Below, piece by piece: positions 15,052 through 22,657 of a stretch of DNA of 34,821 nt. The stretch is taken from positions 1 through 34,821 of the IMG/VR virus record IMGVR_UViG_3300024520_002197; one strand, written 5' to 3'. The stretch's first letter is position 1. Every line of letters begins with the position of its first letter. The notes beneath the pieces were generated by a model, which was given only the letters and a program-made list of their open reading frames with translations, made no database searches and was not told where the DNA came from. Position numbers and translations under genes: made by a program. This DNA is from a virus.

Positions 15052-15271
15052 GGAACTTATTAAAGTTGCTGAAGAAAAAATCATTACTAATACTGAAGAT
15101 GATGTTTCTGCAGATAGACTTAAAAACGCGGCTGCAACTAAAAAGCTTGCTATATTTGATGCGTTTGAAATATTAGCTAGAATAGAAGAAGAAAAAAATA
15201 TGCTTGAAGAAAAACCTCAAAATACTAAAGAAAAAAGTTTTAGAGGTTTTGCTGAGGGTAGATCAAGATAA
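14996..15271 (+). CDS. Putative terminase small subunit
   Basis: A 91-residue mainly helical protein beginning 56 bases inside the end of the preceding gene and joined to the large terminase by a TAATG overlap. Its core is SIIQAGQKAVEELIKVAEEK followed by SADRLKNAAATKKLAIFDAF and EILARIEEEKNMLEE, with a basic Phe/Arg tail (KSFRGFAEGRSR). Small terminase subunits are typically encoded immediately upstream of the large one, are helical, oligomerise through coiled coils and bind DNA to start packaging. Position and secondary structure fit, but no helix-turn-helix signature is certain and the protein is short. It could instead be an unrelated packaging accessory. Confidence 0.55.
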   Translation: MSSKETRKSIIQAGQKAVEELIKVAEEKIITNTEDDVSADRLKNAAATKKLAIFDAFEILARIEEEKNMLEEKPQNTKEKSFRGFAEGRSR

Positions 15272-17496
15272 TGTACGAACAGTCTTTAGTAAAAACATTA
15301 AAAGACCACATTAAACCTAAAATTTTAAAAAGAAATAATAGGTATAAAAAATGGGAGTATGGCTATGACGTTGAACACGACGTTATTGTTATTAGTAAAA
15401 ACGGCACAATAGGTGATGTAATTGAAATACAAAACCTTAAAATAGCTTTACCAGCTACACATGATAATGTTTATGCTGCGTCTGATAAAATAGAAGATCA
15501 ACGTTGGGCTAAGTCGGAATACCCTAAACCATTAGCTAAAATTAAAAGTGTATTTGACTGGGAAAGATACCCAGTTAATTTTAAAGAAGAATGGTACGAT
15601 TATATTGACGAAGAGTTTAAAAGACGTGAAGAAGGATATTGGTTCTATAATAGAGGCGTGGCTACTTACATCACTGGTTCTCACTATATGTTCTTGCAGT
15701 GGAGCAAAATTGATGTTGGTGCCGCAGATTACAGGGAGTCAAATAGGCTTTTCTTTATATTCTGGGAAGCATGTAAAGCCGACCAGCGATGTTATGGTAT
15801 GTGCTACCTCAAAAACAGACGCTCTGGTTTTTCATTCATGGCGTCATCAGAGCTCGTGCATCAAGCAACAATATCTTCCGACTCACGCTTTGGGATATTA
15901 TCAAAATCAGGGTCTGACGCTAAAAAAATGTTTACCGACAAAGTTGTACCCATATCAGTCAACTATCCTTTCTTTTTCAAACCCATACAAGACGGTATGG
16001 ACAGGCCAAAGACGGAGCTTGCCTATAGAGTACCAGCGTCAAAACTCACAAGGCGTAAACTCGACCAAGGCGAAGCGCCAGAGGAACTCGACGGTCTCGA
16101 CACGACGATCGACTGGAAGAACACGGGTGACAACTCGTATGACGGTGAAAAACTCAAAATTCTCGCCCACGACGAATCAGGTAAGTGGGAGCGTCCGGAT
16201 AATATTTTAAATAACTGGCGAGTTACAAAAACAACATTAAGATTAGGTAGCAAAATTGTTGGTAAGTGCATGATGGGATCAACGAGCAACGCTCTTGACA
16301 AAGGTGGTGATAACTTTAAAAAATTATATTATGCATCAGACGTCACGCGAAGAAACCGCAATGGACAGACTAGCTCAGGATTATATAGTTTGTTCATACC
16401 TATGGAATGGAACTACGAAGGATTCATTGATTCTTTTGGATTACCTGTACTCGAAACACCAAAGGACGCGATTAAAGACGCCCAGGGTGATTTAATTACT
16501 ACAGGTGTTATAGAACATTGGGATAATGAAGTTGATGGTCTTAAAGATGATCAGGATAGTTTAAACGAATATTATAGACAGTTTCCTCGTACAGAGAAAC
16601 ACGCGTTTAGAGATGAAGCTAAGTTATCTTTATTTAATCTAACTAAAATCTACGAGCAAATAGATCATAATGAAGATATTAAAAACAAAGCCATGGTTAC
16701 TCAAGGTAACTTTCAATGGGCTGGTGGTATAAAAGATACTACTGTAAATTTTGTACCAGATAACAATGGTAGATTTTTAGTTTCTTGGATTCCACCTGCA
16801 AATCTTCAGAATCGTGTGATAATAAAAAATGGAGTGAAGTTTCCGGGTAATGATCACGTTGGGGCTTTTGGTTGTGACAGTTACGATATATCAGGAACTG
16901 TAGATAACAGAGGATCTAAAGGATCTTTACATGGTTTAACAAAATTCAGCATGGAGCAGGCTCCTTTTAATATGTTCTTTTTAGAATATATATCAAGACC
17001 CCCAACAGCTGAAATATTCTTTGAAGATGTTTTAATGGCATTGCATTTTTATGGCATGCCTATACTTGCGGAGAATAACAAACCTCGACTATTGTATTAT
17101 TTAAAACGTAGAGGTTATAGAAAATTTTCAATGAACAGACCAGACAAAATATATAATAAACTGTCTGTTGCAGAAAGAGAAATAGGTGGTATACCTAACT
17201 CAAGCGAAGATATTAAGCAAGCTCACGCTGCTGCTATAGAATCATACATAGAAAATTACGTGGGCTTAAAAGAAAATGGATATAGTGATATGTATTTTCA
17301 AAGAACATTAGAAGACTGGGCAAAGTTTAATATAAACAATAGAACAAAATTTGATGCAACAATTAGTTCTGGCTTAGCCATAATGGCATGTAATAAAAAC
17401 AAATACACACCAGTAAATATTCAACAAAGAGATACAGTTAACATATCGTTTAAAAAATATGATAACACAGGTTACATTTCAAAAATAATACAATAA
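15271..17496 (+). CDS. terL: Terminase large subunit (DNA-packaging ATPase/nuclease)
   Basis: A 741-residue protein. The ATPase half has a deviant Walker A, KNRRSGFS (181-188), with Lys at the first position as in lambda gpA rather than a GK(T/S) loop. Walker B is ILAHDE (297-302), with Asp301 and the catalytic Glu302, and the coupling motif is GSTSN (336-340). A C-terminal RNase H-like nuclease is indicated by HVGAFGCDSYDISGT, whose Asp536 is a likely metal ligand, and later acidic residues near FEDVLMALHFYGMP. It cuts concatemeric DNA and pumps it through the portal encoded next. The start is in a TAATG overlap with the putative small subunit. Residues about 171-310 are encoded by DNA of markedly higher GC content with C-ending codons, unlike the rest of the gene. 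Confidence 0.92.
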   Translation: MYEQSLVKTLKDHIKPKILKRNNRYKKWEYGYDVEHDVIVISKNGTIGDVIEIQNLKIALPATHDNVYAASDKIEDQRWAKSEYPKPLAKIKSVFDWERYPVNFKEEWYDYIDEEFKRREEGYWFYNRGVATYITGSHYMFLQWSKIDVGAADYRESNRLFFIFWEACKADQRCYGMCYLKNRRSGFSFMASSELVHQATISSDSRFGILSKSGSDAKKMFTDKVVPISVNYPFFFKPIQDGMDRPKTELAYRVPASKLTRRKLDQGEAPEELDGLDTTIDWKNTGDNSYDGEKLKILAHDESGKWERPDNILNNWRVTKTTLRLGSKIVGKCMMGSTSNALDKGGDNFKKLYYASDVTRRNRNGQTSSGLYSLFIPMEWNYEGFIDSFGLPVLETPKDAIKDAQGDLITTGVIEHWDNEVDGLKDDQDSLNEYYRQFPRTEKHAFRDEAKLSLFNLTKIYEQIDHNEDIKNKAMVTQGNFQWAGGIKDTTVNFVPDNNGRFLVSWIPPANLQNRVIIKNGVKFPGNDHVGAFGCDSYDISGTVDNRGSKGSLHGLTKFSMEQAPFNMFFLEYISRPPTAEIFFEDVLMALHFYGMPILAENNKPRLLYYLKRRGYRKFSMNRPDKIYNKLSVAEREIGGIPNSSEDIKQAHAAAIESYIENYVGLKENGYSDMYFQRTLEDWAKFNINNRTKFDATISSGLAIMACNKNKYTPVNIQQRDTVNISFKKYDNTGYISKIIQ

Positions 17497-19917
17497 ATGG
17501 TTTATACTAATGTAAATAGTTCTTTTCCTAGTCAGGTAGTACCAGACGCAGAAAAAGATACTTTGGACTACGGTTATCAAGTAGGTAGGGCTATTGAAAA
17601 TGAATGGTTTAGAGGTGATCGTGGCTTAGGCGCTGGTGGTCGCTTTGGTAACAACTGGCAAGATTTTCATAGATTAAAATTATACGCTAGAGGCGAACAG
17701 TCTGTAGCTAAATATAAAGACGAATTCTCAGTTAATGGTGATTTGTCTTATCTTAATTTAGACTGGAAACCTGTAGCTGTATTATCTAAGTTTGTAGATA
17801 TAGTTGTAAATGGAATGACCGATAAAGGTTATGAAATTAAATCTTTTGCTACTGATCCATATGCTGTTTCACAGAGAACAGAGCACGCCAAAGGTATAGC
17901 TGAAGATGCATTTTCTAGAGACTTAATAACTCAAGCCCAACAAAATTTAGGTATAGATGTTTCTAGAACTAATATACCATCAGAGCAATTACCCCAAAGC
18001 AAAGAAGAGTTAGAACTACATATGCAGCTTAGTTATAAGCAGGCTATAGAAATAGCAGAAGAAGAATTAATAAGCAATGTATTTGATTATAACAAATACG
18101 AAGAGACTAAAAAAAGATTAGCATACGATTTAGTAGTGCTAGGTATATCTTGTGTTAAAACAAATTTTAATTTAGCAAACGGTGTTACTATAGATTATGT
18201 AGACCCTGCTAATCTTGTTTATTCTTATACAGAAGATCCTAATTTTGAAGACATATATTACGTTGGTGAAGTTAAAAGCGTAAGTCTTGAAGAGCTTAAA
18301 AAGCAATTTCCTTATTTAACAGATTCTGATTTAGAAGAAATACAAAAATATCCAGGTGATTCTAATTATACAAGAAATTATTGGGGTCAAGATGATAGTT
18401 ATAACAACATACAAGTGTTGTATTTTGAATACAAAACATATCAAAATCAAGTATTTAAAATAAAACAAACAGATCAGGGTCTTTTAAAAGCTATTGAAAA
18501 GCCAGAAGATTTTAATCCACCTGCTAATGATAATTTTGAAAGAGTACACAGAGCTATAGAAGTTTTATATAGCGGCGCTAAAATATTAGGTCACGAAAAA
18601 ATGTTAAAATGGGAACTGGCTGAGAACATGACTAGACCATATAGTGATCAAACTAAAGTTCAAATGAACTACAGTATATCTGCTCCTAGAATGTACAAAG
18701 GCAGAATAGAAAGTTTAGTTAGTAAATGTATTGGGTTTGCTGATATGATTCAATTGACTCACTTAAAAATACAACAGGTGTTAGCTCGCATGGTGCCAGA
18801 TGGAGTATTTGTAGATGTTGATGGTTTGTCAGAGGTAGATCTCGGTAATGGTACGAACTATAATCCACAAGAAGCTTTAAACATGTACTTCCAAACAGGT
18901 AGTATTGTTGGTAGATCTAAGACTATTGATGGTGATATTAATCCTGGTAAAGTACCTATTCAAGAACTACAAACATCTAATGGTCAAGCTAAAATAGGTG
19001 CGCTGGTACAAACATATCAATATTATTTACAAATGATAAGAGATGTGACGGGATTAAACGAAGCTAGAGATGGTAGCCAACCAACTAAAGACGCTTTGGT
19101 AGGTTTGCAAAAGCTAGCAGCTGCCGCATCAAACACAGCTACTAAACATATACTGCAATCGCTAATGTACTTAACAGTAAGAACAGCTGAAAATATAAGT
19201 TTAAGAGCTGCGGATATGCTAAACTTTCCGTTAACTAAAAATGCTTTAATGAATAGCATTAGTACATTTAACACGAGTACATTGGAGCAAATGCGTAATT
19301 TAAATATGCATGAGTTTGGTATATTCTTAGAATTAGAACCTGAAGAAGAAGATAAGCAAATGCTACAAAAAAATATACAGATAGCTTTGCAGTCAGGCGG
19401 TGTTGATTTAGAAGATATTATAGATATAGAGCAAATATCTAATATTAAGTTAGCCAATCAAATGCTTAAAATAAAACGTAAGCAAAAACAAGAAAGAGAT
19501 CAAGCTGCAGCTCAAGCCAATATACAAGCTCAAGCTCAAGCTAACGCGCAAGCTAACGAGCAAGCTGCTCTTGCTGAAATGCAGAAACAACAAGCTCTTA
19601 CAGAAACCAAACTTCAGCTTGAGCAAGGTAAGTCTCAATTTGAAATACAACGTATGCAAACAGAGGCTGAAATTAAAAAGCAACTAATGGCTGAAGAGTT
19701 TAACTACAATATTCAGTTAGCTGAGGCTAGAGCTAAAGTTGAAAGAGAAAAAGAAAAAGAAATTGAAAATCGTAAAGACGAGCGGGCTAGAATCATTGGT
19801 ACACAGCAGTCTGAAATGATATCTCAAAGACAAAATGACGAATTACCAAAAAACTTTGAGTCTGCCGGTAATGACTCGCTTGGAGGATTTGGACTAGAAC
19901 AGTTTGAACCTCGTTAA
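17497..19917 (+). CDS. Portal protein
   Basis: An 806-residue protein directly after terL (TAAATG junction). It has the all-round features of a podovirus-type portal: a conserved early segment (NNWQDFHRLKLYARGEQSV, then LSYLNLDWKPVAVLSKFVDI), a central DPANLVYSYTEDPNFEDIYY, and a stem or crown region with VTGLNEARDGSQPTKDALVG, followed by long helices. Residues about 655-780 form a Gln/Ala/Glu-rich coiled coil that includes an Ala-Gln repeat (QAQAQANAQANEQ), probably the barrel or crown facing into the capsid. It should form the dodecameric DNA gate at one vertex. It ends with an acidic, Gly-rich tail (GGFGLEQFEPR). The identity rests on position between terminase and scaffold and on these segments. 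Confidence 0.88.
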   Translation: MVYTNVNSSFPSQVVPDAEKDTLDYGYQVGRAIENEWFRGDRGLGAGGRFGNNWQDFHRLKLYARGEQSVAKYKDEFSVNGDLSYLNLDWKPVAVLSKFVDIVVNGMTDKGYEIKSFATDPYAVSQRTEHAKGIAEDAFSRDLITQAQQNLGIDVSRTNIPSEQLPQSKEELELHMQLSYKQAIEIAEEELISNVFDYNKYEETKKRLAYDLVVLGISCVKTNFNLANGVTIDYVDPANLVYSYTEDPNFEDIYYVGEVKSVSLEELKKQFPYLTDSDLEEIQKYPGDSNYTRNYWGQDDSYNNIQVLYFEYKTYQNQVFKIKQTDQGLLKAIEKPEDFNPPANDNFERVHRAIEVLYSGAKILGHEKMLKWELAENMTRPYSDQTKVQMNYSISAPRMYKGRIESLVSKCIGFADMIQLTHLKIQQVLARMVPDGVFVDVDGLSEVDLGNGTNYNPQEALNMYFQTGSIVGRSKTIDGDINPGKVPIQELQTSNGQAKIGALVQTYQYYLQMIRDVTGLNEARDGSQPTKDALVGLQKLAAAASNTATKHILQSLMYLTVRTAENISLRAADMLNFPLTKNALMNSISTFNTSTLEQMRNLNMHEFGIFLELEPEEEDKQMLQKNIQIALQSGGVDLEDIIDIEQISNIKLANQMLKIKRKQKQERDQAAAQANIQAQAQANAQANEQAALAEMQKQQALTETKLQLEQGKSQFEIQRMQTEAEIKKQLMAEEFNYNIQLAEARAKVEREKEKEIENRKDERARIIGTQQSEMISQRQNDELPKNFESAGNDSLGGFGLEQFEPR

Positions 19918-19949: not shown

Positions 19950-21161
19950 ATGTTAGAAGAAGTAAAACAAGAAGGTGAGTTTAAACTACAAGCCAAACCT
20001 AAAAGACCTAAAAACTTAGGTAAAACAGAAGAGGTAACTAAAGTTGAAATACCTAACACAGCTATTGAAGCTCAAGGTAAAGTTGTACCTGAAGTTACTA
20101 AAGTTGAAATTAAAAACGAAGATAATGCCGTTCAAGAGCAAAGCGCAGATGCAAGCGATGATACTGTCGGGCAACCCGAAAACGGTAGCAACAGCGAAGA
20201 AGTGGTTGAAGAAGTACGGACCACCGACTCAAATGAAGAGTCCCCTCTCTCTGTTATTGAAGAAGTATCAGAAGAAGAAGTAAAACCTACTGAAGAAAAA
20301 GTAATTGAAGAGGTTGAAAGAGCTGTTGTAGAACAAAAAGTTCTACCTGAAAATATTGAAAAGCTAGTTTCATTTATGGAAGAAACTGGTGGTACAGTCG
20401 AAGATTACGTTCGACTTAATGCAGATTATTCTAATGTAGATAACAATACGTTGGTAAGAGAATATTATAAACAAACACGACCGCATCTTGATCATGATGA
20501 CGTAAGTCTTTTATTAGAAGACTTTGATTATGATGAAGAATTGGACGACGAAAAAGATATACGCAAAAAGAAAATTGCGTTTAAAGAAGAAGTTGGAAAA
20601 GCCAAAAACTTTTTAGAGGGATTGAAAGATAAATATTACGACGAGATCAAGTTGAGACCGGGCGTAACTCAAGAACAACAAAAAGCTGTGGATTTTTTCA
20701 ATCGATACAGTGAAGAACAGCAAGCTATTACAAAAACTAGGGATAATTTTATTGACCGAACTAAGAGTTTATTTAACGAAGATTTCAAAGGTTTTGATTT
20801 TAAAGTTGGTGAAAAGAAATTTAGATACGGTATTAAAAACCCTCGGCACGTTGGTGAGACGCAATCAAATATTGATAACTTTGTTAAGACGTTCTTAAAT
20901 AAAGACGGTGAAATAGGTGATATGCAAGGGTACCATAAAGCTTTGTATGCTGCTAGAAATGCTGATACTTTAGCTCAACATTTCTATGAACAAGGAAAAG
21001 CTGACGCTGTTAAAGAAGTCATGGCTAAGTCAAGAAACATTTCGACTGAACCAAGACAAACAGCTCAAGGTGAAGTATTTGTTAATGGTTTAAAAGTTAA
21101 AGCTATTAGTGGTGTTGATTCTTCAAAACTTAAAGTTAAAAAAATAACAATAAAAAAATAA
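19950..21161 (+). CDS. Capsid scaffolding protein
   Basis: A 403-residue, very acidic protein between portal and major capsid genes, the standard scaffold position. Residues 1-130 are low-complexity and Glu/Val/Lys-rich (TKVEI twice, and EEVVEEV and VSEEEV runs), so probably disordered. The ordered core starts at about 130: LPENIEKLVSFMEETGGTVE, then DYVRLNADYSNVDNNTLVRE and LLLEDFDYDEELDDEKDIRK, with helices through LRPGVTQEQQKAVDFFNRYS. The C-terminal 60 residues are basic and end SSKLKVKKITIKK, as expected for a scaffold helix-turn-helix that contacts the capsid protein. It should guide procapsid assembly and then leave or be degraded. Codons for residues 59-111 also encode a second small protein in the +1 frame. 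Confidence 0.78.
   Translation: MLEEVKQEGEFKLQAKPKRPKNLGKTEEVTKVEIPNTAIEAQGKVVPEVTKVEIKNEDNAVQEQSADASDDTVGQPENGSNSEEVVEEVRTTDSNEESPLSVIEEVSEEEVKPTEEKVIEEVERAVVEQKVLPENIEKLVSFMEETGGTVEDYVRLNADYSNVDNNTLVREYYKQTRPHLDHDDVSLLLEDFDYDEELDDEKDIRKKKIAFKEEVGKAKNFLEGLKDKYYDEIKLRPGVTQEQQKAVDFFNRYSEEQQAITKTRDNFIDRTKSLFNEDFKGFDFKVGEKKFRYGIKNPRHVGETQSNIDNFVKTFLNKDGEIGDMQGYHKALYAARNADTLAQHFYEQGKADAVKEVMAKSRNISTEPRQTAQGEVFVNGLKVKAISGVDSSKLKVKKITIKK
20125..20283 (+). CDS. Overprinted small phage protein inside the scaffold gene
   Basis: A 52-residue reading frame, shifted +1 relative to the scaffold gene, from ATG at 20125 to TAA at 20283. It starts MPFKSKAQMQAMILSGNPKT and goes on AKKWLKKYGPPTQMKSPL. The MPFKSKAQ(M/R)...A(K)KW....(G)P layout is a familiar one among tiny phage proteins of unknown function, and it is improbable that an unused frame would spell it by chance. 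Base composition supports double coding: about 49% GC by hand count over 20121-20260 against about 35% just upstream. The same bases give the scaffold a disordered, acidic stretch that can tolerate the constraint. The product would be small and basic. Translation is not proven; internal initiation inside the scaffold message would be needed. Confidence 0.6.
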   Translation: MPFKSKAQMQAMILSGNPKTVATAKKWLKKYGPPTQMKSPLSLLLKKYQKKK

Positions 21162-21172
21162 AATAAATAATC

Positions 21173-22657
21173 ATGGCTGTAAGTCCTATATTTGGTGACA
21201 TTATTCCGTCACAAAAACAACAGTTGCTAGATACTAATTATCTATCATTTAATGGTGGAACTGGTACTGGTGACTCTGATACATTCGCTCAACAATATCT
21301 TCCTGAGATTTATGAGCAAGAAATAGAGCGATATGGAAATCGTACGCTCTCTGGATTTTTACGTATGGTTGGTGCTGAAATGCCTATGACGTCTGATCAA
21401 GTTATTTGGTCTGAGCAAAACCGTCTACACATTTCTTACACAGACTGTACTAACGATCAAGTTAACACTATCACTATTCCTGTAGCGTTAACTCCTGCTG
21501 ATCCTAAAGATTACGTTGCAAACGTAGTTTCTGTTGGTCAAACTATTGTAGCCGTTGATGCTGCTGGTAATGAACTTAAAGCTGTAGTAACTGCATCTAA
21601 CCTAACTTCTGGTGCACTTACTGTTGCTCCTTACACTGCTACTACAACTGCTTCACTAGGAACTACTGTTAAGATCTTCGTATATGGATCTGAATATGGA
21701 AAAGGTTCTTCTACTCCTAGCTCAACTGTAAGCGCTGGCGCTTCTGATGGGTACATTAGTATTGATCCTAACTTTACTCAATTCAGTAATTCACCAATTA
21801 TCATTAGAAGCAAGTATGTTGTTTCTGGTTCTGACACTGCTCAAGTTGGTTGGGTCGAAGTTGCTACTGAAGATGGTACTGGAGGATATCTATGGTATCT
21901 AAAAGCTGAGTCTGAAACAAGACTACGTTTTGAAGATTACTTAGAAATGTCAGTTGTTGAAGGTGAAAAAGCTTCTGCTACAGGAGCTGGCTCTGCTGCT
22001 AACGCTGGTTACAAAGGTACAGAAGGTTTGTTTGCTGCTATCCAATCACGTGGTAACGTAGAAGTTGGATTCGCTGGACAAGCTGCTGCTGCTGCTTTGG
22101 CTGATTTTGATTTGATTCTTAAGAACTTAGACACTCAAGGTGCTATTGAAGAAAATATGCTTTTCTTAAACCGTGAGACTACTCTTACTATCGATGATAT
22201 GTTAGCTGGACAGAACTCATATGGAACTGGTGGTACATCTTACGGTGTATTTGAAAACTCAGAAGACATGGCACTAAACCTTGGCTTCTCTGGTTTCCGC
22301 AGAGGTTCTTATGACTTCTATAAGACTGACTGGAAGTATTTGAATGATGCATCTACAAGAGGTGGTTCTGTAGCAGCTGGTGCTGCTAACTCGAAGTACT
22401 CTATTGAAGGTGTGTTGGTTCCAGCTGGTACTTCAACTGTATATGATCAAATTCTAGGTACTAACATCCGTCGTCCATTCTTGCACGTACGATATAGAGC
22501 GTCACAAACTGACGATCGTCGTATGAAGTCTTGGTTGACTGGATCTGTTGGTGGTGCATTTACTAGCGATCTTGACGCTATGGAAGTTAACTTCCTATCT
22601 GAAAGATGTCTATGTGTACAAGGTGCTAATAACTTCGTGTTATTCACTGGAGTATAA
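21173..22657 (+). CDS. Major capsid protein
   Basis: A 494-residue protein following the scaffold gene and closed by a strong hairpin. It opens AVSPIFGDIIPSQKQQLLDT and has FAQQYLPEIYEQEIERYGNR (about 43-62). The middle (about 100-230) holds an apparent inserted beta-domain, VSVGQTIVAVDAAGNELKAV to KIFVYGSEYGKG, before the capsid fold resumes at YLWYLKAESETRLRFEDYLE. The end, DAMEVNFLSERCLCVQGANN, resembles that of other phage capsids in this group. It is Ala/Gly/Ser/Thr-rich and low in Lys, and its codon use (GCT, GGT, GTT, ACT, AAC, TTC) is more uniform than in its neighbours, as in a very highly expressed gene. An HK97-type fold is inferred from context. It should form the icosahedral shell. 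Confidence 0.85.
   Translation: MAVSPIFGDIIPSQKQQLLDTNYLSFNGGTGTGDSDTFAQQYLPEIYEQEIERYGNRTLSGFLRMVGAEMPMTSDQVIWSEQNRLHISYTDCTNDQVNTITIPVALTPADPKDYVANVVSVGQTIVAVDAAGNELKAVVTASNLTSGALTVAPYTATTTASLGTTVKIFVYGSEYGKGSSTPSSTVSAGASDGYISIDPNFTQFSNSPIIIRSKYVVSGSDTAQVGWVEVATEDGTGGYLWYLKAESETRLRFEDYLEMSVVEGEKASATGAGSAANAGYKGTEGLFAAIQSRGNVEVGFAGQAAAAALADFDLILKNLDTQGAIEENMLFLNRETTLTIDDMLAGQNSYGTGGTSYGVFENSEDMALNLGFSGFRRGSYDFYKTDWKYLNDASTRGGSVAAGAANSKYSIEGVLVPAGTSTVYDQILGTNIRRPFLHVRYRASQTDDRRMKSWLTGSVGGAFTSDLDAMEVNFLSERCLCVQGANNFVLFTGV

Follow-up and report, generated by a model that had tools for sequence, protein, structure and literature searches.

A widespread phage micro-gene, very probably translated, in the +1 frame of a presumed head scaffold gene

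In phage lambda, the scaffold gene Nu3 lies in frame within gene C, so that a second product is made by internal initiation inside a head gene. In phages, overlapping genes are mostly discovered singly and regarded as young orphans. For overprinted virus genes in general (reviewed in PMC8227390), one stretch of DNA encodes two proteins in different frames, and the gene inside is as a rule a young orphan within an old gene. The micro-gene described here, found in a 34.8-kb viral fragment (the window, meaning the whole stretch analysed), has the same arrangement of one stretch and two frames.

The head module of the window runs, all on the + strand, from the terminase large subunit (15271..17496; phrog_6681, E 3e-162) through a P22-like portal protein (17497..19917; phrog_6547, E 3e-142; Pfam P22_portal, E 7e-9) and a 403-aa gene (19950..21161) to the major capsid protein (21173..22657; phrog_13704, a virion structural protein, E 7e-89, with a homologue in Callevirus Calle_1 annotated as major capsid protein). 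The 403-aa gene, which hosts the micro-gene, is presumed to be the head scaffold from its position between the portal and major capsid protein genes; a PHROG search with it returned no scaffold match, and the label therefore rests on position only. The phi38:1 homologue carries the annotation structural protein, and further homologues are present in Flavobacterium, Cellulophaga, Tenacibaculum and Maribacter phages. An antisense ORF of 144 codons also lies inside the portal gene (19023-19457, - strand).

The micro-gene (20125-20283, + strand) occupies the +1 frame of the host gene and consists of 52 codons and a TAA stop, with the product MPFKSKAQMQAMILSGNPKTVATAKKWLKKYGPPTQMKSPLSLLLKKYQKKK, a member of an MPFKSKAQ... 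family related to PHROG 1375. Alignment and AlphaFold2 delimit a 34-codon core with two predicted helices (20125..20226, +). The initial annotation had given the coordinates, frame and 52-residue sequence exactly, and the rise in GC content to about 49% that it reported is also correct (GC is 49.3% at 20121-20260, 31.2% in the sequence immediately upstream and 32.7% in that downstream, with a window average of 35.2%). When codons were redrawn at the window's own usage with the small protein held fixed, the scaffold frame stayed open in only 0.4% of draws; with the scaffold protein fixed, the products of the redrawn +1 frames were on average 41% identical to the actual small protein. The 52-codon +1 frame stayed open in just 1.6% of these latter draws. 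Such occasional openness, and the ease with which E/K-rich host stretches yield K-rich +1 ORFs, would suit an untranslated by-product of a scaffold stretch that is conserved or of low complexity. The nested ORF is nevertheless more than chance, above all because 111 distinct host genes have conserved both the ORF and its protein.

Searched with the scaffold protein, viral contigs yielded hundreds of relatives, in most of which a family profile located the small protein. After removal of duplicates, the +1-frame ORF was present in the same relative frame in those 111 host genes, beginning 112-202 nt past the host start, and comparison of the sequences shows that the nested ATG is fixed across members.

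Substitutions were counted between nearest relatives over the ungapped 34-codon core, in 49 disjoint pairs; in this arrangement the third position of the small frame is the first position of the host codon, and the host third position is the second of the small frame. Of the changes, 219 replaced a host residue but left the small protein unaltered, against 22 of the reverse kind. For the small protein 71% of changes were silent, where about 19% would be expected, and for the host 8%, where about 21% would be expected. Across the whole cluster of scaffold hosts, changes at positions 1/2/3 of the small-protein codons numbered 139/104/405, and the cluster of giant hosts (see below) bears the same signature (117/81/252). 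Control stretches at six other offsets in the same hosts have their maximum at position 2 (e.g. 73/491/141), as is expected of host coding alone. The pattern and its reversal in the controls therefore identify the nested frame as the constrained one, with the host frame merely kept open. An untranslated by-product is very hard to reconcile with substitutions that track the small frame, with a mean amino acid diversity in the overlap that is lower for the small protein than for the scaffold protein (0.187 vs 0.397), or with the occurrence of family members both as genes of their own and inside an unrelated host, and this explanation retains almost no credibility.

Two criteria of an overlapping gene are thus met: purifying selection acts in the nested frame, and the host frame codes on both sides, as the shifted controls indicate, and is open through the overlap. 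The initial annotation had proposed testing for suppressed synonymous change, and scaffold-synonymous change is indeed suppressed exactly across the nested stretch; its expectation that the scaffold could tolerate a second frame here also holds, since the host part that shares bases with the micro-gene (20124..20283, +) is hydrophilic and acidic, with residues that the substitution pattern indicates to be almost unconstrained. Suppression of host-frame synonymous change might also be produced by a nucleotide signal, such as an RNA structure or a packaging or regulatory site, that encodes no protein. However, third positions of the small frame change plentifully and follow the genetic code of the small protein, and dissimilar subfamilies have a protein layout in common but not their nucleotides, so that a pure nucleotide signal is scarcely tenable.

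It could also be argued that the small gene is real but does not overlap, the true scaffold start lying downstream and the upstream scaffold frame being untranslated, and free-standing members do occur between portal and scaffold genes. Against this, the upstream control (shift -45) has 226 of its 401 changes at host third positions, which indicates host coding there; the host start is therefore not downstream of the nest. The host frame is free of stops in all 111 distinct sequences, where redrawn codons would give about 3.6, and the nests in giant hosts lie hundreds of codons inside the gene. A downstream start is accordingly very unlikely. The codon for Phe3 is TTC in 155 of the 163 scaffold-nested members, where TTT would usually create a host stop; TTT outnumbers TTC 321:63 in the window and 23:13 among free-standing members. 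Both frames are maintained despite unfavourable odds. On comparative grounds alone, with no translation or protein evidence, the micro-gene at 20125-20283 is very probably a real nested gene, and its translation is inferred.

Neither of the outcomes that would have refuted the initial annotation, a lack of homologues or an interrupted frame in close relatives with normal synonymous variation, was encountered: the 52 residues, used as a query against viral contigs, matched at least 212 loci. Yet 11 of 80 scaffold homologues lack the nested gene, with stops in the small frame and the host frame intact, and one of these has no copy anywhere in its 38-kb contig. In the nest-less homologues L051, L060, L061, L065, L069, L072, L076, L077 and L079, the N- and C-terminal parts are shared and a different short acidic stretch replaces the overlap. 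The micro-gene is absent altogether from Callevirus, Baltivirus and Panino phages. From these absences it follows that the micro-gene is not universally essential. As the initial annotation had also foreseen for ordinary gene callers, GenBank records of isolates with a homologue leave the nested ORF unannotated, and in the records examined standard annotation thus omits a conserved head-module protein. No earlier description of the nested gene was found in the literature, as far as open-licence papers extend.

The small-protein family overlaps PHROG 1375 (70 aa, function unknown), with which it has in common the layout MPFKSxAQ...P(K/E)xAK. This PHROG was matched by 23 of 37 family members (best E 5.8e-6), and type c relatives (see below) from the same site match it at 6e-4 and 3e-3. 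The small protein of the window has no match to it on its own at E<=1, and does match the family profile built in this analysis. The conserved-residue criterion (M1-P2, F3, K4, Q8, P18 and an AKKW helix) was met: M1, P2 and Q8 are invariant in alignments A1 and A3, F3 and P18 reach at least 90% in both, as does K4 in A3. The protein is very basic, and AlphaFold2 predicts confident helices at residues 6-13 and 18-31 and a less certain third, with a mean pLDDT of 91-95 over residues 1-30. No family of known function was matched by the small protein in PHROG, Pfam, NCBIfam or PDB profile searches; matches of the protein and 36 relatives to Pfam and NCBIfam were at chance level only, and Foldseek against viral and PDB libraries found no match to the fold at E<=0.001. 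Profile matches in the PDB to the Cake and Bagel designed propellers were rejected as spurious, as they extend over some 20 residues within a repeat motif.

Four layouts share the one nested site. Type a, to which the window belongs, reads QMxAMxLSxNPKTxxxAKKWLKKYG; type b reads CYAQNNPKWDCKKW; type c reads YLFxxxPKxAKxFLKxTS...LPxK; and type d reads WLxxNKPEIYLKWKNKY. Some hosts with C-terminal parts that are 82-85% identical carry small proteins of different types that are only 39-55% identical, whereas type a small proteins have a mean identity of 85% at lower host identity. The types are also intermixed on the host tree, where 33 changes of type were counted (an upper-range count, the type labels being scripted and coarse). 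Because host and small-protein identities are discordant and the types are intermixed, these comparisons point to the nested small genes having been swapped at the site.

The 283 distinct members collected include 245 nested in a longer ORF; the +1 frame accounts for 244 of these. The sample is biased by the queries used, and the ratio of nested to free members is therefore no population estimate. The family had been described in the initial annotation as normally encoded in its own gene; free-standing members do exist, but most members in this sample are nested, and in sister phages the host is a different gene. Linkage of the hosts by blastp with the overlap masked gives two main unrelated clusters, one of 163 (scaffold-position) and one of 75 (giant) members, the remainder forming two clusters of two and two singletons.

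The giant hosts include those of Elemovirus (Flavobacterium phage elemoA_1-9A and kin), where a tblastn match at E=2 that at first resembled noise proved to be a true homologue nested in the giant gene. One elemo nested copy spans MT497075.1 3582-3710, and Flavobacterium sp. BAL314 is a laboratory host of an elemo phage. Elemovirus and MW202828.1 belong to the phage group of the window (42-49% identity in the major capsid protein) and, like the window, have a single member in the +1 frame; unlike the window, the nest is in a virion gene of 3,667-3,859 aa and not in the scaffold-position gene. In the records tested, phages with giant hosts are sister lineages with capsid proteins 57-61% identical (49-56% for the two GenBank records), and they have kept a scaffold homologue. 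Each positive genome has one copy (9/9 and 20/20). More broadly, giant virion proteins of about 1,700-3,900 aa that evolve fast carry the micro-gene in the +1 frame of a variable linker (L155:9405-20984, L001, L303 and about 70 others). No convincing Pfam family was found for the giant host of MW202828 or the other giants tried.

No member would force a host stop in the +1 frame, whereas 46% of nested peptides would force some in +2; +1 is the sole sense frame that is always permissive, in that the small gene can always avoid forcing host stops, and overlap in this frame renders the host stretch hydrophilic. The lone +2-frame member in a longer ORF (L318:9048, 306 codons) is possibly a chance open frame.

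The context of the nested start (20105..20124, +) is rich in adenine and lacks a Shine-Dalgarno sequence. Among 110 distinct contexts, adenine occurs upstream of the nested ATG at 89% at -3, 95% at -6 and 83-91% at -11 to -13, the pattern of Bacteroidota. In Flavobacterium johnsoniae, adenines at -3, -6, -12 and -13 are measured positive determinants (PMC6847099). When a score is built from the gene starts of the window itself, the nested ATG ranks like a gene start, a value reached by 1.8% of other ATGs in the window. Neither of the two main host clusters is enriched in Shine-Dalgarno sequences (1% vs 8% in the control, and 7% vs 13%), but such sequences precede all five cases in host clusters 2, 3 and 5, whose phages probably infect other bacterial hosts. 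The start context supports internal initiation, as far as such a pattern can, and falls short of proof because some of the adenine positions are also under host codon constraint. Members in large genes at L205:4001, L200:4001, L190:4001 and L179:4001 each have a Shine-Dalgarno-like sequence upstream; their phages have no capsid homologue to the window, and they are possibly further independent captures.

Free-standing members in unrelated phages follow the portal gene (L226, L206, L173, L199, L202) or precede a gene for a scaffold or major head protein (L226, L171, L210, L199), and seven of the loci examined have one or the other position. Some free-standing members are found away from the portal, among them L383:6001 (gp48 of Streptomyces phage FlowerPower, an isolate), which lies directly before the holin gene. 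Because free-standing members occupy the same interval between portal and scaffold as the nested copy of the window, the gene order suggests an old portal-adjacent gene over which the host reading frame was laid later. That a host frame extended over an adjacent old gene is the simplest account, in preference to the birth of a new gene within an older one, and on at least two occasions the micro-gene has apparently become enclosed in another gene. The micro-gene would thus at first have been a separate gene between portal and scaffold, across which a host frame would then have run, that of the scaffold in the window and that of a giant virion protein in its sister phages. The full reading, that of an ancient single-copy micro-gene that became the guest of at least two unrelated virion genes independently in +1, with cassette exchange between subfamilies and a newer host frame, is held with moderate confidence.

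What the small protein does can only be inferred. The proposed product is a basic helical hairpin of about 35-55 aa, encoded in the +1 frame within the N-terminal part of the scaffold-position gene, which may be made by independent internal initiation on late head-gene mRNA; its position inside a head gene would give it the right timing and dose. The likeliest role would be that of a small portal- or capsid-associated assembly factor required alongside the scaffold or portal. Its location in the head module, seen in many unrelated phages, together with nesting in virion genes, favours a head-assembly or packaging accessory, although for action in head assembly as such the case is no better than evenly poised. 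A real nested product could instead be an anti-host or regulatory factor. Its function is unknown, some relatives do without it, the apparent exchange of subfamilies at the site recalls arms-race genes, and a basic helical hairpin, as modelled by AlphaFold2, would be compatible with such a role. The same location and nesting weigh towards assembly, leaving an anti-host or regulatory role possible but doubtful.

If the older age of the small gene is correct, overprinting here runs against the textbook direction, in that the frame of the host is the new one, laid over an old gene. One widespread family provides hundreds of naturally replicated cases, with the same protein and frame in unrelated hosts; free-standing, nested and missing states exist side by side, and the origin, direction and cost of an overlap are therefore directly testable. 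Nu3 shares the reading frame of C, whereas the micro-gene is read in a different frame and its product is unrelated to that of its host. Compared with the overprinted virus genes reviewed in PMC8227390, the micro-gene appears to be an old and widespread gene instead of a young orphan, and its members are found in at least two unrelated host genes.
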